This document shows positions 13,377 through 43,798 of a stretch of DNA of 43,857 bases, piece by piece. A program made the position numbers and the translations under genes. The notes under the pieces are model-generated. The model was not told where the DNA came from, made no database searches, and saw only the letters and a list, made by a program, of their open reading frames with translations. Within the stretch, counting starts at the first letter, position 1. The number at the start of each line of letters is the position of its first letter. The stretch is taken from the NCBI RefSeq assembly GCF_009602465.1, contig NZ_WBKP01000032.1, positions 1 to 43,857 of the forward strand, given 5' to 3'. The DNA comes from Cumulibacter manganitolerans. Its GTDB lineage: Bacteria; Actinomycetota; Actinomycetes; Mycobacteriales; Antricoccaceae.

Positions 13377-15191
13377 GTGATTCGTACCCACCTGGCATCG
13401 AGCCTGAGCGCGACCGACGCGGGGCAGACCGTCACCCTCGCCGGGTGGGTCGCGCGGCGGCGTGATCACGGCGGAGTGATCTTCGTCGATCTGCGCGACT
13501 CGAGCGGCGTGGCCCAGGTCGTCTTCCGCGAGGGCGACATGGCGCAGAAGGCGCACCGACTGCGTGCGGAGTTCTGCATCGCCGTCACCGGCAAGGTCGA
13601 GGTGCGCCCCGAGGGCAACGAGAACCCGAACCTGCCCTCGGGCGAGATCGAGGTGTACGTCGACTCCCTCGAGGTGCTCAGCGAGTCCGCACCGTTGCCG
13701 TTCCAGATCGATGCCCAGGGCATCGGCGAGGTCGGCGAGGAGGCGCGGCTGCGCTATCGCTACCTCGACCTGCGCCGCGAGCGTTCCGGCAATGCGCTGC
13801 GGCTGCGCAGCAAGGTCAACGCAGCTGCGCGCGCCGTCCTCGCCGAGCGCGACTTCGTCGAGATCGAGACCCCCACGCTCACCCGTTCGACGCCTGAGGG
13901 GGCGCGCGACTTCCTCGTGCCGGCTCGGCTGGCTCCGGGATCGTGGTACGCGCTGCCGCAGTCGCCACAGCTGTTCAAGCAGCTGCTCATGGTCGCGGGC
14001 ATGGAGCGCTACTACCAGATCGCGCGCTGCTACCGCGACGAGGACTTCCGCGCCGACCGCCAGCCGGAGTTCACCCAGCTCGACATCGAGATGTCCTTCG
14101 TCGACCAGGAGGACGTGATCGAGCTCGGCGAGTCCATCATCGCCGCGCTGTGGCGGCTGATCGGCGTCGACGTCCCCCGGCCGATCCCGCGGATGACCTA
14201 CGCCGAGGCGATGCGCCGCTACGGCTCGGACAAGCCCGACCTGCGCAGCGACCTCGAGCTCGTCGAGTGCACCGAGTTCTTCAAGGACACGCCGTTCCGG
14301 GTCTTCCAGGCTCCGTACGTCGGAGCGGTCGTCATGCCGGGGGGAGCGTCGCAGCCGCGCCGTACCCTCGACGCCTGGCAGGAATGGGCGAAGCAGCGTG
14401 GCGCGAAGGGCCTGGCGTACGTCCTCGTCGGCGAGGACGGCGAGCTGACCGGACCGGTCGCCAAGAACCTCTCGGACGACGAGCGTGCCGGGCTCGCCGC
14501 GCACGTCGGCGCCCGTCCCGGCGACTGCGTGTTCTTCGGCGCGGGCGCGGTCAAGTCCACGCGGGAGCTGCTCGGCGCGGCTCGTCTAGAGGTGTCCCGA
14601 CGGTGCGGGCTCATCGACGAGGACGCCTGGTCGTTCCTGTGGGTGGTGGATGCGCCGATGTTCGAGCTCGCCGCCGAGACCGACGACGTCGCCGTCGGCT
14701 CGGGCAAGTGGACCGCCGTGCACCACGCGTTCACCGCGCCGAAGCCCGAGTACCTCGACACCTTCGACACCGATCCCGGTGCGGCGCTGTCGAACGCCTA
14801 CGACATCGTCTGCAACGGCAACGAGATCGGCGGCGGGTCGATCCGCATCCATCGCCAGGACGTCCAGGAGCGGGTGTTCGAGCTGATGGGCCTCTCCCAC
14901 GACGAGGCTCGCGAGAAGTTCGGCTTCCTGCTCGATGCCTTCCAGTACGGCGCTCCGCCGCACGGCGGCATCGCGTTCGGCTGGGACCGGATCGTCGCGC
15001 TGCTGCACAAGAGCGACTCGATCCGCGACGTCATCGCGTTCCCGAAGTCCGGTGGCGGCTTCGACCCGCTGACCTCGGCCCCGGCGCCGATCACCGCGCA
15101 GCAGCGCAAGGAGGCCGGCGTCGACGCGAAGCCCAAGCAGGAGTCGAAGAGCACCGCTGACGCCAAGCCCACGCAGGACGTCAAGGCCTGA
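13377..15191 (+). CDS. aspS: Aspartate-tRNA ligase
   Basis: A 604-residue bacterial-type class IIb synthetase. The order is an N-terminal OB-fold anticodon-binding domain (about 1-105, [19 protein letters not shown]), a catalytic core with RYRYLDLRR and [20 protein letters not shown], a GAD insertion domain (about 290-420), and motif 3 GIAFGWDRI near the C terminus. Many actinobacterial AspRS enzymes are non-discriminating and also feed Asp-tRNA-Asn to GatCAB; that cannot be decided here. A short Lys-rich tail follows residue 575. The start GTG 13377 abuts the hisS stop and has AAGGAG at 13365-13370. Confidence 0.97.
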
Positions 15192-15198
15192 TCCTCGC

Positions 15199-15258
15199 CC
15201 CCGTTGTCATGTGCTCGCTTCGGGCGACGTCGCCCGAAGCGAGCACAACACAACGGGG
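15199..15258. repeat. 60-bp palindrome, family A copy 1 (aspS / DUF2891 junction)
   Basis: An almost perfect inverted repeat centred at 15228.5, with 28 of 30 positions complementary. It comprises outer arms CCCCGTTGT/ACAACGGGG, middle arms GTGCTCGC/GCGAGCAC and a core TTCGGGCGACGTCGCCCGAA. It fills the gap between two convergent genes. It may act as a bidirectional terminator, but no T tract is present. Confidence 0.95.
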
Positions 15259-15268
15259 AGCCGGGTGG

Positions 15269-16264
15269 CTACGGAAGGCCGTGCTCGGCGAGCAGCAGGA
15301 AGCTGACCAGCCAGTGCGTGCTCATGAAGTCGCCGTCCACGGTGGCGCGCGCCGCGTCCGCGACCGTCACGGCGGTCGCGGCGGCGATGCGGTCGCGTCG
15401 ATCGGCGGCCACGTGCGCCGCGAGCGTCCGCAGCAGCCAGGCGCGGCTCAACGCCAGCCCGTGCAGGTGCACGGCCTTCCCGTCGGACGGATCGAGCACG
15501 AGGGTGCGTCCCAGCAGCGGGTCGTCCGGCGCCCCGAGCCCGGGCGCGAAGCGGTCGAGCCACGAGTCAAAGCCGTCCGCGGGGAGGACCTGCTGCAGCA
15601 GCGCGGCCTCGCACAACGTGGGCGAGAGGAAGTCGCTGCCGCTCGGCTCGTACGCCGTCGGTGCGTCCCGATCGTCGGCGTACCAGGTGATCGCGCCGTC
15701 GTCGAGCGACGCGACGATGTCCGGGCGGTCGAGGACCTCCGCGGCGCGGCGGGCGAGCAGCATCGCGAACGCAGTGTTCGAATGCTCGCCGTGGCGCACC
15801 GGGTAGCCCACCCGTGGAAGCCACCGCCTCAGCCTCTCGAGCACCGTGGTACCCAACGGCCGTACGGCGTCCGCCCAGCCGTGCCGGCGCGCGGTCGGCG
15901 AGGCGGCGGCGATCGACGCCAGCTGCGCGGCCCACGCCCACCCGTACGGACGCTCGTAGGCGGGATTGGCTGCCAGATAGGCGATCTCTGTCTCGATGTG
16001 CTCGGCCGTCAGCCGCCAGTCCAGCAGCCGGACTAGGTCCTGGCGCACGCCCTCGCCGATCCGATGGTCCTCCAGCAGCCGGATCGCGGAGGCCTGCATG
16101 TGCACGCTCGAGTGCCAGTCGAAGCTGCCGCAGAACGCCGGGTGCAGGGCGCGGGGATCGAGGTGCACGTCGTCCGATGACCGGTGCACATGCTGGGCGG
16201 CATAAGGAAAGTACGTCGTGAGCGCGGTGAGGACGGTGCGTGCCAGCGGGTCCGGCTCGGTCAT
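15269..16264 (-). CDS. DUF2891 family protein
   Basis: A 331-residue soluble protein matching the DUF2891 family in layout. The N-terminal segment HPAFCGSFDWHSSVHMQ, ERPYGWAWAAQLA, the middle GEHSNTAFAML and SGSDFLSPTLCEA are its typical blocks. Conserved His, Glu and Asp residues in these blocks suggest an alpha-helical (alpha/alpha-barrel-like) enzyme, but no activity is established. ATG 16264 is 19 bp after the DUF937 gene, so the two probably form an operon. The frame stays open further upstream, but that region belongs to the DUF937 gene. Confidence 0.85.
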   Translation of the reverse strand: MTEPDPLARTVLTALTTYFPYAAQHVHRSSDDVHLDPRALHPAFCGSFDWHSSVHMQASAIRLLEDHRIGEGVRQDLVRLLDWRLTAEHIETEIAYLAANPAYERPYGWAWAAQLASIAAASPTARRHGWADAVRPLGTTVLERLRRWLPRVGYPVRHGEHSNTAFAMLLARRAAEVLDRPDIVASLDDGAITWYADDRDAPTAYEPSGSDFLSPTLCEAALLQQVLPADGFDSWLDRFAPGLGAPDDPLLGRTLVLDPSDGKAVHLHGLALSRAWLLRTLAAHVAADRRDRIAAATAVTVADAARATVDGDFMSTHWLVSFLLLAEHGLP

Positions 16265-16283
16265 CCGTCCAGCGGGTGGCGGC

Positions 16284-16904
16284 TCACTTGCGGCCACGGC
16301 CGAGCAGCCCACCGAGCAGGTCGCCGAGCCCGCCGCCGGACCCGCCGAGCAGGCCGCCGAGCAGGTCGCCGAGGCCACCGCCCGCCCTGTGCTCCGGCGC
16401 CGACGAGGGCGAGCCGGCGTCGGCCGGGGCGGGGAAGCCGGCCGGTGACTGCCCGACGCCACCGGAAGCCGGGGTGCCGGACCGGGTCGCCGTGCCGCCG
16501 GACCGCTGCGACCACTTGGCCGCCAGCCACTTCAGCACGATCGGCGCCAGCAGCGGAAGCAGCTTGGCGAGCATGTCCGACCCGAGTGCAGGGCGCGCGC
16601 CCGCGAGCTGGTCGACCACCTGGCCGGTGTTGCCGCCGAAGACGTGGTGCACGATCTTCGCGCCGTCCCGCTCGTCCTGCGCGCCGAGATCGAACAGCGT
16701 CGCCGGGTCCGCGCCCTGGTGCCGCTCGAGCGCCTGCGCGAGCGACTGCTCGCCCGCGGGATCCTGGGCGTTCGCGCCGAGGCCGCCGACCAGGGCGGGG
16801 ACCGCCGCGCGCACCGCCTCGCTCGCCGTCCGCTCGTCGACGCCGAGCGTCCGGGCGACCTGGGAAAGGGGGATCTGGGCGATGAGGCTGTCGATGTCGT
16901 TCAC
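16284..16904 (-). CDS. DUF937 (YidB-like) protein
   Basis: A 206-residue protein. The N-terminal half is a DUF937 domain (VARTLGVDERTASEAVRAAV, then ALVGGLGANAQD) of two small helical repeats, found in YidB-like proteins of unknown function. The C-terminal half is low-complexity and Gly-rich, with the tandem block GGGLGDLLGGLLG seen twice, ending in a basic RGRK. GTG 16904 has GAAGGTG upstream. Divergent from the aminotransferase gene. No function can be assigned. Confidence 0.85.
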   Translation of the reverse strand: MNDIDSLIAQIPLSQVARTLGVDERTASEAVRAAVPALVGGLGANAQDPAGEQSLAQALERHQGADPATLFDLGAQDERDGAKIVHHVFGGNTGQVVDQLAGARPALGSDMLAKLLPLLAPIVLKWLAAKWSQRSGGTATRSGTPASGGVGQSPAGFPAPADAGSPSSAPEHRAGGGLGDLLGGLLGGSGGGLGDLLGGLLGRGRK

Positions 16905-20272: not shown

Positions 20273-20338
20273 CCGAGGCGGGGTTCGTCGGCCAGAGCGG
20301 GGAAGCTTCCCCGCTTCGGTCGACGAACCCCGCTTCGG
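20273..20338. repeat. 66-bp imperfect palindrome (family B) between thiolase and rarA
   Basis: An inverted repeat centred at 20305.5 on AAGCTT, with 29 of 33 positions complementary. Each arm contains GCGGGGTTCGTCG and AGCGGGGAAG. The position after the thiolase stop suggests a terminator. It shares the CTTCGG/CCGAAG theme with family A but is a different sequence. Confidence 0.9.
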
Positions 20339-20381: not shown

Positions 20382-20387
20382 TACCAT
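20382..20387 (+). promoter_or_regulatory. Candidate -10 for rarA
   Basis: TACCAT ends seven bases before GTG 20395, which would be a leaderless start. The alternative ATG 20386 overlaps this hexamer. Confidence 0.4.
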
Positions 20388-20394
20388 GGGCCAG

Positions 20395-21754
20395 GTGGCA
20401 GGCCTGTTCGAGATTCCCGGAACGGACGACGATCCGGCGTACGACGAGCCGCCACCCGAGGCCGCCGTCGACCCGCACGCGCCGCTGGCGGTGCGCATGC
20501 GGCCGCGGACCCTCGACGAGGTCGTCGGCCAGCGCAAGCTGATCGGTCCTGGGACGGCGCTGCGGCGCATCGTCGAGGGCGACACCGCGATGTCGGTGAT
20601 CCTGTACGGCCCGCCGGGGACCGGCAAGACGACGCTCGCGCACGTCATCGGGCACGCCACCAACCGGCGGTTCGTGCAGCTGTCGGCGCTCAATGCCGGC
20701 GTCAAGGACGTCCGCGCGGTGATCGAGGAGGCCCGGAAGCGGCGGCAGCGCGGCGGGGAGCAGACGGTGCTGTTCATCGACGAGGTGCACCGCTTCTCCA
20801 AGACCCAGCAGGACTCGCTGCTGGCCGCCGTCGAGCAGCGCACGGTCGCGCTGATCGCGGCGACCACCGAGAACCCGTTCTTCTCGCTGGTCTCGCCGCT
20901 GCTGTCCCGCTCGCTGCTGCTCACCCTTGGAGCCGCTGGCCGACGACGACGTCCGCGCGGTGCTCACCCGGGCGCTCGGCGACGAGCGCGGCCTGGCCGG
21001 CCGGCTGGAGATCGAGCCGGACGCCCTCGACCACCTGGTGCGGACGGCCGCCGGGGACGCGCGGCGGGCGTTGACCTCCCTGGAGGCCGCCGCCGACATC
21101 GCCGACGGCGACGGCAGCTCCCTGGTGGACGCCGAGACGGTCGCCCGGGCGATCGACGTCGCCGCCGTCCGCTACGACCGCGACGGCGACCAGCACTACG
21201 ACGTCGCCAGCGCGCTGATCAAGTCCATCCGCGGCTCGGACGTCGACGCCGCCCTGCACTACCTCGCCCGGATGATCACCGCGGGGGAGGATCCGCGCTT
21301 CATCGCCCGCCGGCTGGTCATCTCCGCCAGCGAGGACATCGGGATGGCCGACCCGAGCGCCCTGCAGACGGCGATCGCCGCGATGCAGGCGGTGTCGTTC
21401 ATCGGCATGCCGGAGGGCCGGATCCCGCTCGCCCAGGCCGTCGTGCACCTCGCCTGCGCACCGAAGTCCAATGCGGCGTACGCCGCGATCAACGCGGCCA
21501 TCGCCGACGTCCGCGCCGGCTCGCTGGGCACCGTGCCGCCGCACCTGCGCGACGGGCACTACGCCGGGGCGAAGAAGCTCGGCCACGCGCAGGAGTACGT
21601 CTACCCGCACGCCCTCGAGGAGGGCATCGCCGGGCAGCAGTACGCGCCGGACGTCGTCGACGGCAAGGACTACTACGTGCCGACCGGGCGCGGGGTCGAG
21701 AAGGCGATCGGCGAGCGGCTGGCGAAGATCCGCCGCATCCTCCGCGACCGCTGA
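20395..21754 (+). pseudogene. rarA: Replication-associated recombination protein A (AAA ATPase), frameshifted
   Basis: The protein sequence matches RarA/MgsA, an AAA+ clamp-loader-like ATPase acting at stalled forks. The N-terminal half has [14 protein letters not shown], Walker [12 protein letters not shown], Walker [12 protein letters not shown] and the [18 protein letters not shown] sensor region. The C-terminal half begins [12 protein letters not shown] and has [16 protein letters not shown] and the usual end. The halves are in different frames: after LLLTL the frame breaks at 20926-20928 (acccttgg), where one extra base is present. Removing one base restores a continuous protein of about 450 residues. 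It may be a sequencing or assembly error, a true mutation, or less likely +1 recoding. The start is GTG 20395 (leaderless pattern) or ATG 20386. Confidence 0.85.
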
Positions 21755-21775: not shown

Positions 21776-21831
21776 CCGTTGTGTTGTTGCGACTTCGGGC
21801 GACGTCGCCCGAAGTCGCAACAACTCAACGG
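21776..21831. repeat. 56-bp palindrome, family A copy 2 (rarA / LLM junction)
   Basis: An inverted repeat centred at 21803.5. The core TTCGGGCGACGTCGCCCGAA is identical to copy 1. The arms are TTGTTGCGAC/GTCGCAACAA instead of GTGCTCGC/GCGAGCAC, so both sides changed together. There is one mismatch in 28 pairs. It lies between two convergent genes. Confidence 0.95.
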
Positions 21832-21834
21832 GGC

Positions 21835-22815
21835 CTAGGACCCCACCGCGGACATGAACGCCTCGAGCTCGCGCGGGATGTCCGAGCCGGCCGGCTGGTA
21901 CGCGATCTCGGTGACGCCCTGCTCGGCGTACGCCGCCACCCGGTCGCGGATCTCGGCCCGTGAGCCGGTCAGCGTCAGCTTGCGGATGATCGTCGCGGCA
22001 TCGGCCACCGCCTCGCGGTCGTGCTCGTTCAGGGTGACCATGTGGCCCTCGTGCACCGCGAGGTGCCGCTGGTCGGCCGGCGCCGCCTCAACACTGCGCA
22101 CCCACGCCTCGCCGCCGGGGTAGCGGCGGACGCCGTCGGCGCCCTGCCGCTCGTACATCGCGTGGAAGCGCACCGCGAGCGCGTGACCCGCGGCGTCGAC
22201 CACCCGCGGCGAGGAGCCGTCCTCGCCGTCCTCCAGGACCGTCCCGTACATCAGCAGCGCCTGCCAGCCCTCGGCCCGCTCGTTGGGCACCGCGGCCGCG
22301 AAGATGCCGTCGCCGACCGCCTTGGCGACCTCCGTGCCCAGCGGGCCGTTGGCGCCGATCAGGATCGGGACGTCGATCGGCCGCGCCGCCGCGAACCCGG
22401 GGCCGTGCAGCATCTTGATCGGCGCACCCTCCCACTCGGCGACCTCGCCCGCGAGCAGAGCCCGCAGCACCTCGACGTACCGGCGCACGTCGCGCCACTT
22501 CATCGGGCGCTGGCCCAGGGCGTGCCGGCCGGTGAAGCCGGAGCCCACCGCCACGACCACCCGCCCCGGCGCGATCGCGCACAGCCCGGCGATCGCGGCG
22601 GCGTTCGTCATCGGGTGCCGCAGGCTCGGCACCAGCACGCCCGGGCCGAGGGCGATCCGCTCGGTACGTTCCGCCGCGGCGTACAGCATCGCCCACACGT
22701 CGGGGTACAGCGCGGGGGAGTCGTAGGCCCAGGCCCGCCGATAGCCGAGCGAGTCGGCGATCGCGATGTGCTCGGGCGTCTGCAGGCTGGTCGCGAATGC
22801 GCAGGAGATGTCCAT
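21835..22815 (-). CDS. LLM-class (F420-dependent type) oxidoreductase
   Basis: A 326-residue luciferase-like monooxygenase-fold protein. The N-terminal [20 protein letters not shown], the [16 protein letters not shown] strand-loop, [16 protein letters not shown] and [21 protein letters not shown] are typical of the actinobacterial LLM proteins that use reduced coenzyme F420. Substrate is unknown. ATG 22815 is chosen because it matches the family N terminus and has a TACGCT hexamer 6 nt upstream (leaderless); an in-frame GTG at 22833 would place that hexamer inside the gene. It occupies the interval where rpsD is found in Streptomyces. Confidence 0.88.
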
Positions 22816-22821
22816 GCGCGG

Positions 22822-22827
22822 AGCGTA
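22822..22827 (-). promoter_or_regulatory. Candidate -10 for a leaderless start at ATG 22815
   Basis: Minus-strand TACGCT is followed by six bases (CCGCGC) and then ATG. No ribosome binding site is present in the gap. Confidence 0.5.
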
Positions 22828-22918
22828 GGCCACCGGCGGTCCGCACGGCGACGGGCGGCTCGTGACTACGCGGTAGTCTGGGACGCTGACGCACGTCCAA
22901 CCACGCTAAGGAGTCAAC

Positions 22919-32562: not shown

Positions 32563-32636
32563 CCACGCTCTCGCGGTGGGTGGTACCCCGCTAATCACGC
32601 GATAGCGGGGTACAACCCACTGCGAGCGGTGCGTGG
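32563..32636. terminator. Long hairpin (family C) between aroQ and phaC
   Basis: A 24-bp stem, 32570-32593 with 32603-32626, with two mismatches and a 9-nt loop. The inner arm is GGTACCCCGCTA. Outer CCACGC (32563-32568) can pair with GCGTGG (32631-32636). It sits between two convergent genes, so it could terminate transcription from both sides. There is no T run. Confidence 0.75.
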
Positions 32637-37076: not shown

Positions 37077-37118
37077 AGTGGGCTCGTGCCCATTGAGCGG
37101 GTCGATCGGCCCGCTCAA
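37077..37118. terminator. Two adjoining hairpins (family D) between the DivIVA-type gene and ykoC
   Basis: Hairpin 1 is AGTGGGC with GCCCATT (37077-37094). Hairpin 2 is TTGAGCGGG (37093-37101) with CCCGCTCAA (37110-37118) and an 8-nt loop. They overlap by two bases. They lie between convergent genes, suggesting a bidirectional terminator; no T tract is present. Confidence 0.6.
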
Positions 37119-37127
37119 GGGACACAC

Positions 37128-40850: not shown

Positions 40851-40889
40851 GAACGAAGAGACGCGAGGAACGCTGAGGGTCCACGCGTG

Positions 40890-40979
40890 CCCAACTCCCT
40901 ACGCCGGTACGAGCCGGATCAGGTTCACGGGTCTGTGGCCGAGCCACACTCTCAGCGCTGGATGCGCTCCCCGGGGGTC
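40890..40979 (-). promoter_or_regulatory. TPP riboswitch upstream of ykoFEDC
   Basis: Minus-strand order: GGGGAGCGC (40964-40972), GCTGAGA (40950-40956), a P3 hairpin TGTGGC-TCG-GCCACA, ACCCGTGAACCTGATC (40917-40932), a P4/P5 region CCGGCTCGTACCGG, and GTAGGGA (40896-40902). These are the conserved THI-box blocks in the correct order and spacing. It should sense thiamine pyrophosphate and shut down the thiamine-precursor transporter. Confidence 0.95.
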
Positions 40980-40986
40980 GTCGCCC

Positions 40987-41036: not shown

Positions 41037-41726
41037 ATGACTGATCGACCGATTGCCCTCATCACCGGTGGCTCGCGCGGCGTGGGCCTCGCCATCGCCC
41101 GCGAGCTGCAGGCCACGCACCATCTCCTGATCGGCGCGCGCACCGCGGAGGCTGCCCGCGCCGCGTGCGCGGAGCTCGAGTCGGCGGAGCCGTTCGTAGC
41201 CGACCTCACCGACGAGGCGGCGCTCGCCGAGGCGGCGGCCTCGCTGCCCGACCTGGATCTGCTGGTGCACAACGCGGGCATCTCCACGAAGAACGCCGTC
41301 ATCGACACGACCCGCGCGCAGTGGCGGCAGATCTTCGAGGCGAACCTGTTCGCCGTCGCCGACCTGACCGCGCGGACGCTGCCGGGCCTGCGCCGTACGC
41401 GGGGGATGGTCGTGCTGATCAACTCCGGCTCCGGGTTCTTCACCAATCCGGAGAACGCGATGTACTGCGGGACGAAGTTCGCGCTGCGCGCCTTCGCCGA
41501 CGTGCTGCGGGAGGAGGAGCGGCCCAACGGCGTCCGGGTCAGCTCGGTGCATCCCGGCAAGGTGGACACCGACATGCAGCGGGAGATCGTCGAGCACGAC
41601 GGCGGGACCTATCAGCCCGAGCTCTACCTGACGCCGGAGTCGGTGGCCCGCGCGGTGCGCGCCGCGGTGGAGGCGAGCCCCGACGCGACCCTCGAGGTCG
41701 TCTCAGTACGCCCGACCCGCCGGTAG
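41037..41726 (+). CDS. Short-chain dehydrogenase/reductase
   Basis: A 229-residue classical SDR. The cofactor motif is ALITGGSRGVGLAIA (TGxxxGxG). The NAG motif is LLVHNAGIS. The catalytic Ser is in VVLINSGSG, and the YxxxK motif is MYCGTKFAL. VHPGKVDTDM corresponds to the PG motif after the active site. It is an NAD(P)H-dependent oxidoreductase of unknown substrate; an Arg in the loop after the first strand (GART) suggests NADPH preference. ATG 41037 is predicted leaderless. It stands alone between the divergent thiamine operon and the convergent oxidase gene. Confidence 0.9.
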   Translation: MTDRPIALITGGSRGVGLAIARELQATHHLLIGARTAEAARAACAELESAEPFVADLTDEAALAEAAASLPDLDLLVHNAGISTKNAVIDTTRAQWRQIFEANLFAVADLTARTLPGLRRTRGMVVLINSGSGFFTNPENAMYCGTKFALRAFADVLREEERPNGVRVSSVHPGKVDTDMQREIVEHDGGTYQPELYLTPESVARAVRAAVEASPDATLEVVSVRPTRR

Positions 41727-41766
41727 TCGATGGCCTCCCGCCGTCCGCGACCTCGCCGACCTTCTC

Positions 41767-41818
41767 GTTGTGGTGTGCTCGCTTCGGGCGACTACGCCCG
41801 AAGCGGGCACAACACAAC
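41767..41818. repeat. 52-bp palindrome, family A copy 3 (SDR / oxidase junction)
   Basis: An inverted repeat centred at 41792.5, with GTGCTCGCTTCGGGCG and CGCCCGAAGCGGGCAC. It is more diverged than copies 1 and 2: the central CGACGTCG has become CGACTACG and a few arm positions differ. Again it lies between two convergent genes. Confidence 0.92.
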
Positions 41819-41848
41819 CGGCGGTGGACGACGATGTGGGCCGGGTCG

Positions 41849-43798
41849 TCAGGGCGTCACGACGAAGTGGCCGTGCGCCCCGCGCTCGGCGAGCGCCATC
41901 ACGTGGTCGACGAACGGGTAGCTGCCGGGCTGCTTGAACACCAGCTCGACGAAGCCGCCCTGCGCGGCGGCCAGGTCGAGCGTCTGGGCGCCGCCGGATC
42001 CCGGCCGCAGCAAGAAGGCGCCCTCCTTGTAGACGGTGTCGAACTGGCCGCCGACCACGTGGAACGAGGTCCCGAGGTTGGGCCCCGCGGTCAGTACCCA
42101 GACGCGGACCCGCTGACCGACGGAGGCCGCGAGCGGCTGCGCGTCGTACTGGTTCGCGTAGCCGTTGAAGGTGACCAGGTCCGGCTGCATCGTCGCGATC
42201 TTCCGCGGGTCGGTCGGTCCGCCCAGCTGGCCGAGGTAGTACTCGGACTGCACCAGCAGGTACTCGCGGTCGACCGGCGCGAGGTCCGGCGGGTCGATGA
42301 TCACCGCGCCGTACATCCCGCTGGCGATGTGCGCCGACATCGGCATCGTCGAGCAGTGGTAGAGCCAGATGCCGCTGTGGTCCGCGGTGAACGTGTAGAC
42401 GAGCGACTCACCGGGCGCGATCGTGCGCATGTTGGCGTCGGGGGATACCTCGCCGGCGTGGAAGTCGATCGAGTGCCCCATCGCGCCGTCGTTGACCAGC
42501 GTCACCTCGAAGGTGTCGCCGATCTTGCCCCGCAGCGTCGGGCCGGGGGTGCTGCCGTTGTAGGTCCACAGCTGCTGGCTGACTCCGGGGGCGACCTCGG
42601 TCACCAGCTCCTGGACGGTGAGCGTCACCTTGTGGGTGGTGGTGCCCGCGGCCGGCGGCAGGGTCGGGTCGTGGGCGACGAACTCGGCCGGCGGCTTCTT
42701 CGACAGGTCGATCGCGTCGGCAGCGGGGCCCGTCGACGCCGCGGCGGATCCGGGGTGCCCGGCATGCGAGCCGGACGCCGGTGAGCCCGGCGCCGCCGAC
42801 GTCCCGGCCGCGACCGGCGAGCCGGTGACCCTGATGTGCAGGACCATGCCCATCTGCCGATGCCCCACGACCGAGCACCAGCCCTCGATGCTGCGGCCGA
42901 CTATCCCGACGTCGATCGACGCGGTCTGACCGGGGGACAGCCGACCGCTCGTGTGGCCTGTGTCGAGCACCAGGTCGTGCACCTGGGCGGCCTCGCCGTT
43001 CGTCACCTTCAGCACGAGGCGATCCCCTGCGGGGACGTCGATCGAGCCGGGCGTGAACCGCATGTCCTTCGCAGTGATGCTGACCTCGGTGGTGTGGCCG
43101 GTCGCGGTGACGCCGTCCGCCGCGGACGTCGAGCCGTTGACCGCCTGGGGGTCCAGCGCGACCGCGCCGGCCACGGCCAGCGTCACCACGACCAGCCCGG
43201 CGAGCGCGCCGCCGACTCGCGTGCGCGGATGCGACGCGGGTGGTGGCAGCTCACGCTCCCGCTGCCGGTGGCTGACGATGACCGCGCGCACCGCGAGCAC
43301 CGCGAACGACGCGAGGCCCACCAACCCCAGCATCGAGGCGACCACCTTGACCAGGCTCGGCACCGGCAGGCTGAACAGGACCGCGCCCAGGTTGATGAGC
43401 ACCAGACGCCAACCGAGCCCGCGATCGAGCTCGTGGTTCATCGCTCGGGTGACCTTCGGTCCGCCGCGCAGCACGACCGGCAGCAGGTACGACAGCGCGC
43501 CACTGACCAGCTGCGCGGCGAAGCCGGCCGCGAACGGCGCGAGCAGCCACGCGAGCCGGTCGGCGGCGGCCGGCCACGAGCGGGCGCCGCCGACGAGCAC
43601 CGCGAGAGCGACGGTGGAGCTGAGCAGCCATCCCAGGGCGCAGATGGTCGCCCAGGTGGCGTACGTCGACGGCGGCTTGGCCCGCACGGCCTCCGCCAGT
43701 GGGAGGACGACGGCGCCGATCGCCAACGCGGCGAGGACCAGCGCCGCGGCGGTGCCCGCTCGCGAGCCGGCGACCGCGCAGGCCCGCCTTCGCCGCAC
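41849..43798 (-). CDS. Membrane-fused multicopper oxidase, nitrite-reductase-like; N terminus uncertain
   Basis: About 649 residues. The N-terminal part (about 1-220) has several membrane segments with GFAAQLVSGALSYLLPVVL. A single cupredoxin domain follows, with type 1 ligands in VHDLVLDTGH and GWCSVVGHRQMGM. The C-terminal two-domain region resembles NirK: GHSIDFHAGE, LYHCSTMPMSAHIASGM (type 1 and type 2 ligands), and type 2 His in YPFVDHVMALAE. At the position of the NirK catalytic His (GGH) the sequence reads VVGGQFDTVY, so nitrite reduction is doubtful. It could oxidise copper or another small donor outside the membrane. The frame stays open to the window edge and family members have more membrane sequence upstream, so the gene may be cut by the edge. 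Codon use near 43760-43857 favours another frame. Confidence 0.83.
   Translation of the reverse strand: MRRRRACAVAGSRAGTAAALVLAALAIGAVVLPLAEAVRAKPPSTYATWATICALGWLLSSTVALAVLVGGARSWPAAADRLAWLLAPFAAGFAAQLVSGALSYLLPVVLRGGPKVTRAMNHELDRGLGWRLVLINLGAVLFSLPVPSLVKVVASMLGLVGLASFAVLAVRAVIVSHRQRERELPPPASHPRTRVGGALAGLVVVTLAVAGAVALDPQAVNGSTSAADGVTATGHTTEVSITAKDMRFTPGSIDVPAGDRLVLKVTNGEAAQVHDLVLDTGHTSGRLSPGQTASIDVGIVGRSIEGWCSVVGHRQMGMVLHIRVTGSPVAAGTSAAPGSPASGSHAGHPGSAAASTGPAADAIDLSKKPPAEFVAHDPTLPPAAGTTTHKVTLTVQELVTEVAPGVSQQLWTYNGSTPGPTLRGKIGDTFEVTLVNDGAMGHSIDFHAGEVSPDANMRTIAPGESLVYTFTADHSGIWLYHCSTMPMSAHIASGMYGAVIIDPPDLAPVDREYLLVQSEYYLGQLGGPTDPRKIATMQPDLVTFNGYANQYDAQPLAASVGQRVRVWVLTAGPNLGTSFHVVGGQFDTVYKEGAFLLRPGSGGAQTLDLAAAQGGFVELVFKQPGSYPFVDHVMALAERGAHGHFVVTP

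Follow-up and report, generated by a model that had tools for sequence, protein, structure and literature searches.

The window analysed here was a stretch of 43,857 nucleotides of the Cumulibacter manganitolerans genome (contig NZ_WBKP01000032.1, positions 1 to 43,857), in which the initial annotation had marked three intergenic sites as copies of one palindrome. The three sites were confirmed to be copies of a single 56-bp palindrome with a common core (family A), located at the junctions of aspS with a DUF2891 gene, of rarA with a luciferase-like gene, and of an SDR gene with a cupredoxin/multicopper oxidase gene (Table 1). The palindrome forms a 26-pair hairpin, in which some pairs are mismatched, with a 4-nt loop, and can be folded on either strand. 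The outer arms (CCGTTGT..ACAACGG) and the core (CTTCGGGCG..CGCCCGAAG) are conserved, and a variable stretch lies between them. The arms read GTGCTCGC/GCGAGCAC in copy 1 and TTGCGAC/GTCGCAA in copy 2; copy 3 has the arms of copy 1 except for a single pair, which is a wobble on one strand and a mismatch on the other. As had been reported, TTCGGGCGACGTCGCCCGAA is identical in copies 1 and 2; the loop of copy 3 deviates. With up to three mismatches allowed, the core was matched four times in the window (three matches being exact) against 0.17 expected, a number reached in none of 100 shuffles. The RNA folding z-scores of the three copies ranged from −8.4 to −10.8 over both strands, and stop codons were found 3–38 bp away on each side.

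Several other elements were observed in the window. The rarA gene was split over two frames, an AAA N-terminal part and a C-terminal part, due to a frameshift either in the gene or in the assembly; RarA relatives (59–69% identity) were spread over Actinobacteria, the best being from a Blastococcus. A TPP riboswitch scored 57.4 bits, the gathering score of its model being 54.3. A 40-bp hairpin between convergent genes belonged neither to family A nor to a second palindrome family, B, described below.

Table 1. Features of the 43,857-nucleotide window, in window coordinates.
Feature	Position	Strand	Remark
aspS	13377-15191	+	left neighbour of family A copy 1
Family A copy 1	15201-15256 (15199-15258 including two further pairs)		56-bp palindrome, aspS/DUF2891 junction
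DUF2891 gene	15269-16462	-	right neighbour of family A copy 1
66-bp palindrome	20273-20338		resembles a third family
rarA, both frames	20386-21754		AAA N-terminal part to about 20925
rarA C-terminal frame	20927-21754	+	left neighbour of family A copy 2
Family A copy 2	21776-21831		rarA/luciferase-like junction
Luciferase-like gene	21835-22833	-	right neighbour of family A copy 2
Family B copy	32570-32626		57-bp palindrome between convergent genes
40-bp hairpin	37086-37125		between convergent genes
TPP riboswitch	40879-40983	-	
SDR gene	end at 41726	+	left neighbour of family A copy 3
Family A copy 3	41765-41820		SDR/cupredoxin junction
Cupredoxin/multicopper oxidase gene	41849-43798	-	right neighbour of family A copy 3

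The source genome (G000) is a 3.9-Mb draft of 136 contigs. It contained 12 exact family A cores, and a reversed-pattern control gave none. A genome-wide search with a covariance model built from 26 copies identified at least 28 full-length places at E < 1e-9, which bears out the suggestion of a REP-like family and shows that its copies far outnumber the three of the window. Since 150 of 10083 first-look candidates were scored, the 28 copies may represent a lower bound; four weaker places with E values of 5e-4 to 0.1, three of them full-length and one of 57 bases, were left out of the count. One extra copy was truncated by the end of contig C10 and two were interrupted in the middle by an insertion sequence, giving a total of 28 full, one cut-off and two split copies. 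Among the 41 genomes searched, G002, of the same genus, carried a version of family A with diverged arms (24 strand matches at 12 places). No match was found in G001, also of the same genus, and three further genomes had one or two weak matches each. Copy 1 had no match in plasmids, and copy 2 none in phages. Family A is thus specific to its lineage, in which it has multiplied and become dispersed over gene ends. An all-against-all comparison of 106 neighbour proteins for a gene family recurring beside A copies revealed only a few weak matches (29–33% identity). A REP-associated tyrosine transposase (RAYT), proposed earlier as the partner of the palindrome, was not encountered: PF01797 (Y1_Tnp) had no match in the source genome, G001 or G002, nor in G003 and G004, while 4 of the 41 genomes had one and positive controls were detected. 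A RAYT was therefore ruled out as the spreading agent in the source genome. We additionally observed that the right arms of the A copies on contigs C44 and C58 (L011, L012) enter one common tandem array of approximately 21 bp (GGAACAACCGTCCGGAGCCGC), and that two A-like copies of G002 (L072, L084) have a second palindrome, ACAACCGTCC..GGACGGTTGT, directly to the right.

The placement of family A at gene ends was non-random. Of the 28 copies, 22 had a gene 3′ end within 60 bp, as compared to 21.8% of random intergenic positions (p = 3e-10). Convergent placement, described as exact for the window, applied to all three window copies (by called genes) but to only 14 of the 28 copies genome-wide, against 15.3% of random intergenic positions (p = 2e-5). 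Called divergent regions held three A copies (30.6% expected), one of which is situated between the SRP RNA gene and dnaX, that is, behind the SRP RNA gene, and one copy lay inside a called ORF. Genes were called with an in-house codon-usage caller, which missed the nuclease gene described below in a family B pair of the source genome. Thus, most of the retained A copies closely follow a stop codon, and convergent gene pairs are their commonest setting. The reported lack of T runs was reproduced in 26 copies on both strands, with a T fraction of 0.09 in the 8 nt after the hairpin; the corresponding fraction for family B was 0.23. Of the hallmarks of an intrinsic terminator, family A has the stable hairpin behind a gene and lacks the U tract. 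The proposed use as a two-way terminator, predicted from hairpin and position, fits the placement. Because the strong hairpin can be folded from the transcript of either strand, one A copy could end or protect transcripts arriving from both sides, and A copies may act as two-way terminators or 3′-end protectors.

The notion that paired changes keep the fold held for the three window copies, but across 26 copies of the source genome the signal was barely above that of shuffles. Seven pairs had changed on both sides versus 6.6 in column shuffles, and the covariation score was 0.111 versus 0.096, with 32 of 500 column shuffles as high. The signal became clear when the 26 copies were combined with 6 of the 12 copies of G002: the score was 0.171 versus 0.104 and none of 500 shuffles was as high, in a test where relatedness of the copies can inflate the shuffle control. 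Family B gave a much stronger signal, with a score of 0.418 versus 0.149 (0 of 500 shuffles as high); the copies in the alignment used (A2) were partly chosen by hairpin score, which raises the pairing percentage. Template switching between the arms of a perfect DNA palindrome can also restore pairing, so covariation alone is no proof of selection on RNA.

A scan for half-elements showed that, besides full A copies, partnerless halves occurred only at contig ends (C8, C10, C14, C66 and C71). On C8, C14, C66 and C71 each half lay approximately 80 bases from the contig end and was followed by foreign sequence, with one insertion-sequence terminus on C14 and C66 and the other on C8 and C71. Probes for the two termini matched the genome on these four contigs exclusively. 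A 6-bp duplication of the palindrome centre, read by eye, was GACGTC for C14 with C8 and the non-palindromic GACTGC for C66 with C71. The terminal halves, the foreign sequence and the duplications indicate that an insertion sequence entered family A twice, in the middle, using the centre of A as its target. The half-palindromes had also been considered as the ends of a transposon of another kind; this was discarded, as four of them are A copies split by the insertion sequence and the fifth is the cut-off copy on C10. Sequence resembling 28–30 bp of one terminus is present in two further genomes of the order, in one of them behind an rve transposase gene whose best models, below curated cut-offs, were IS3 and IS481. 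As the body of the element is absent from the assembly, its family is deduced from the resemblance of its end to this one IS3/IS481-like element. The insertion-sequence ends had no match in plasmids. An inverted-repeat layout and an association with an insertion sequence would also be expected if family A were a MITE, the two inverted ends of a DDE transposon with its interior lost. We consider this very improbable and rejected it on the lack of target-site duplication: flanking direct repeats of 2–8 bp did not exceed re-paired controls in frequency (26 copies of A, 81 of B), the ends of the detected insertion sequence are different and it lies within A with a 6-bp duplication, and the partnerless halves were restricted to contig ends.

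Family A is one of several families of 50–70-bp palindromes with a common layout. Family B, represented by one copy in the window, is 57 bp long (about TCTGCGG.G..CGCTA..TAGCG..C.CCGCAGA) and occupies approximately 75 or more places in the source genome. In whole-genome model searches that scored at most 150 candidates per genome, strand matches to B numbered at least 150 in the source genome, at least 150 in G004, 73 in G001 and 95 in G002, with none in G003 and at most two in each of 16 other genomes. Palindromes were listed in a sample made up of the window, 400 kb of the source genome and 200 kb from each of G001 and G002; the 443,857 source-genome bases scanned held 14 strong B copies and 8 A copies. 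Among 61 B copies, a non-random draw consisting of 21 from the sampled stretches and 40 high-scoring hits, 54 had a called gene 3′ end within 60 bp and one was in a divergent region. Junctions of orthologous genes were then compared for family B alone, since the A junctions inspected (at aspS, at rarA and two on C5) were not conserved in relatives. Six of 61 conserved neighbouring gene pairs had a B copy in one species, and in all six the other species lacked it; a different hairpin was present in one of these six B-less junctions. At the window's B copy, the orthologous G001 junction measures 29 bp and lacks a palindrome of this kind. In the source genome, a B copy begins 6 nt after the tmRNA. 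In G001 another hairpin stands behind this RNA and a B copy follows 121 nt on, and in G002 there is only another hairpin.

Further palindromes were recorded in the sampled DNA. The 66-bp palindrome of the window resembles a third family (consensus about AAGCGGGCTTCG..GCGGGGAA..TTCCCCGC..CGAAGCCCGCTT) with copies on C1 and C5. A fourth, of approximately 73 bp and CCGGAAA..CTGTCCAC..GTGGACAG..TTTCCGG-like, had two copies in the sample, C1:85570-85642 (L112) and C1:42065-42137 (L110). A repeat array of about GGTCGTCGAGCGAGCGACGAAGGAGCGACGCCGAGACG was found in a convergent junction of G002 (C3:98400-98890), and a similar motif occurs at C1:161860 of the source genome.

Pairs of B copies 1112 bp apart in the source genome and G001 led to a gene located between them. 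All four homologs in the fetched DNA of the source genome, G001 and G004 were each enclosed by two B copies. Within the four pairs, the variable arms agreed in 21, 22, 21 and 21 of 22 letters, against a background mean of 11–12 of 22 (Fisher p = 7e-4), and the arms of different units agreed in 2–9 of 22. Solo B copies whose arms are identical or almost identical to those of a unit occur in the genome of that unit. Two B copies form the ends of a unit encoding a nuclease-like protein, and the arms, which match between the two ends, are found again in solo copies elsewhere in that genome. The 337-residue protein of G001 scored 20.8 bits for DUF559 against a cut-off of 20.6. At E ≤ 0.1, DUF2726 was matched by all four members, and DUF559 and the best AbiEi models by three of four each; sequence matches in PDB were weak (PvuRts1I, E = 0.12). 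Judged by these weak profile scores, the protein is likely to combine an AbiEi-like N-terminus with a DUF559/DUF2726, PD-(D/E)XK nuclease-like C-terminus. The source-genome gene (on C65) has a frameshift near its end. The G001 nuclease had no match in plasmids, and the G004 nuclease none in phages. Near A copies or in the sampled tiles (approximately 0.6 of 3.9 Mb), no nuclease gene was present except the one on C65 between B copies, and consequently the nuclease link of family A is drawn by analogy.

These data bear on a rival account, by which the palindromes serve solely as U-less hairpin terminators that work in both directions and are maintained by selection. Their likeness would then reflect a common optimum or a duplication now and then, and the nuclease gene would be a passenger with a terminator at each end. 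The 3′-end placement of A and B, the positions behind the tmRNA and the SRP RNA gene and the strong folds on both strands are in line with this account. It does not explain why whole sequences of 56–57 bp, including subtype-specific arms, are common to non-homologous places within a genome and differ between species, why the junctions of other species lack the palindromes, or why the 5′ flanking palindromes agree with the 3′ ones. We therefore regard it as rather unlikely.

If the palindrome pairs are indeed the ends of a nuclease unit, other genes of the AbiEi-DUF559 kind should be flanked by palindromes as well, which was tested in Geodermatophilaceae and Arthrobacter. Eight Geodermatophilaceae homologs were found within 80 loci around rarA (518 kb); they are not independent, because they occupy one similar place upstream of rarA. 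Six of the eight adjoined one or more palindromes scoring ≥14, two of the genes having palindromes on both sides, against a background of 44 palindromes of this score in the 518 kb searched. The remaining two had no palindrome of score ≥14 at their ends. A TGATCATCG..CGATGATCA palindrome had four exact copies in the 518 kb, all located at AbiEi-DUF559 homologs. In Arthrobacter plasmids, three of three homologs had inverted-repeat sequence of one kind at both ends; one unit had just a 26-bp piece at its 5′ side, and another (L326) a 3′ palindrome with a 25-nt loop, which was spotted by eye and then measured, 18 of its 19 arm positions being paired. The palindromes of the two StoSoilB13 units were dispersed over 37 and 10 BLAST places in two plasmids of the strain, counts in which a palindrome is able to match on both strands, and were absent from all other plasmids among 72,556 plasmid records. 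A stop codon lay inside the 3′ palindrome in 7 of the 10 genes having a 3′ palindrome and an in-frame stop. AbiEi-DUF559 genes are thus flanked by B and by several unrelated palindromes. Separately, a 70-bp perfect-armed palindrome was noted on an Arthrobacter StoSoilB13 plasmid (L327, 18723-18792) between two shorter-hairpin copies (ACGACGGCGGCCCTCACC..).

The best explanation of these observations, which we consider probable, is that A and B are REP-like copied palindromes doubling as two-way hairpin terminators and probably spread by a nuclease unrelated to RAYTs. The nuclease would bind DNA and nick or cut it, either at the palindrome or at gene ends; repair or gene conversion would then copy the palindrome to a new place, a role corresponding to that proposed for RAYTs with REPs. 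Family A is assumed, by analogy, to have spread in the same mode as B. Counted against this explanation were the weak within-genome covariation of A, the A copies in divergent regions and in an ORF, the missing U tract, the frameshift in the source-genome nuclease gene, the weak profile scores behind the nuclease assignment, the lack of a nuclease gene near A in the DNA covered and the two Geodermatophilaceae homologs without a high-scoring palindrome. Mobility could instead be due to another recombinase or to ordinary replication and repair (e.g., template switching), with the nuclease unit a later user of the palindromes, like the insertion sequence. That family A has no visible nuclease partner in the DNA around its copies and the sampled tiles, that an unrelated insertion sequence also sits in A and that the outermost sequences of the flanking palindromes vary between groups would agree with such a course. 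We nevertheless find it quite unlikely, given the same arm subtype at both unit ends and in the solo copies that follow it, the recurrence of units with unrelated palindromes in two other groups and the frequent stop codon inside the 3′ palindrome. A wider reading of the nuclease-driven explanation would describe a hitherto undescribed prokaryotic mobile unit, in which a pair of long palindromes surrounds an AbiEi-like/PD-(D/E)XK (DUF559) nuclease gene, the stop codon often lies in the palindrome and solo copies are scattered over gene 3′ ends throughout that genome; such a unit would constitute a nuclease-driven counterpart of REP/RAYT in three actinobacterial groups, with A as one of its families. 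As some of the flanking palindromes in Geodermatophilaceae and Arthrobacter are one-sided or partial, we rate the nuclease-driven explanation no higher than probable and keep this wider reading tentative.

With a gene enclosed by a matching palindrome pair in three actinobacterial groups, the way in which RAYT-less palindromes spread becomes directly testable, and the arrangement suggests a possible role for a protein family annotated just as AbiEi-like or DUF559. It also means that copied DNA stands where other species have their own terminator, e.g., behind the tmRNA. In the literature searched, which was largely open-access, we found no description of a palindrome link of DUF559/AbiEi genes, and the same applied to the literature on actinomycete palindromes. 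U-less intrinsic terminators, used both ways between convergent genes, are a known class, and family A shares with them the strong G+C-rich hairpin just behind stop codons. In contrast to independent hairpins, however, A is a copied sequence family, for which the terminator role is predicted.

Among the closest known systems are REP/REPIN sequences with their RAYTs (REPtrons), as portrayed in PMC2817692, PMC3116915, PMC3733652 and PMC1525189. Like A and B, these are dispersed, lineage-specific extragenic palindromes; like B, they include a gene between two palindrome copies; separate palindrome types go with separate genes; and, like A, REPs are targets of insertion sequences. IS1397 and others insert into REPs, according to the part of PMC1525189 devoted to them, and the insertion sequence in A, with its rve-transposase relative, resembles the IS1397/ISKpn1 type in this respect, although the element in A is known from its ends alone and its family is deduced. 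CGTC-type palindromic repeats, which PMC3733652 presents as apparently lacking a dedicated transposase, likewise are copied palindromes without a RAYT between copies, but in 12-base stretches CGTC accompanied no more than 7 of the 52 ends of A and 14 of the 162 ends of B. GTAG, typical of GTAG REPs, was present at none of 52 A ends and at 6 of 162 B ends (4 inner and 8 outer bases). Moreover, A and B are near-perfect palindromes of 56–57 bp, whereas REPs measure 20–40 bp, and in contrast to REPtrons the source genome has no Y1 transposase, the B-flanked gene being AbiEi-like/DUF559. With no Y1 transposase, no GTAG end and a greater length, family A resembles the REP/RAYT system in its working without being a member of it. 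We rate it as a variant within the REP-like palindromes; the bolder reading would be a class of mobile unit that is categorically new.
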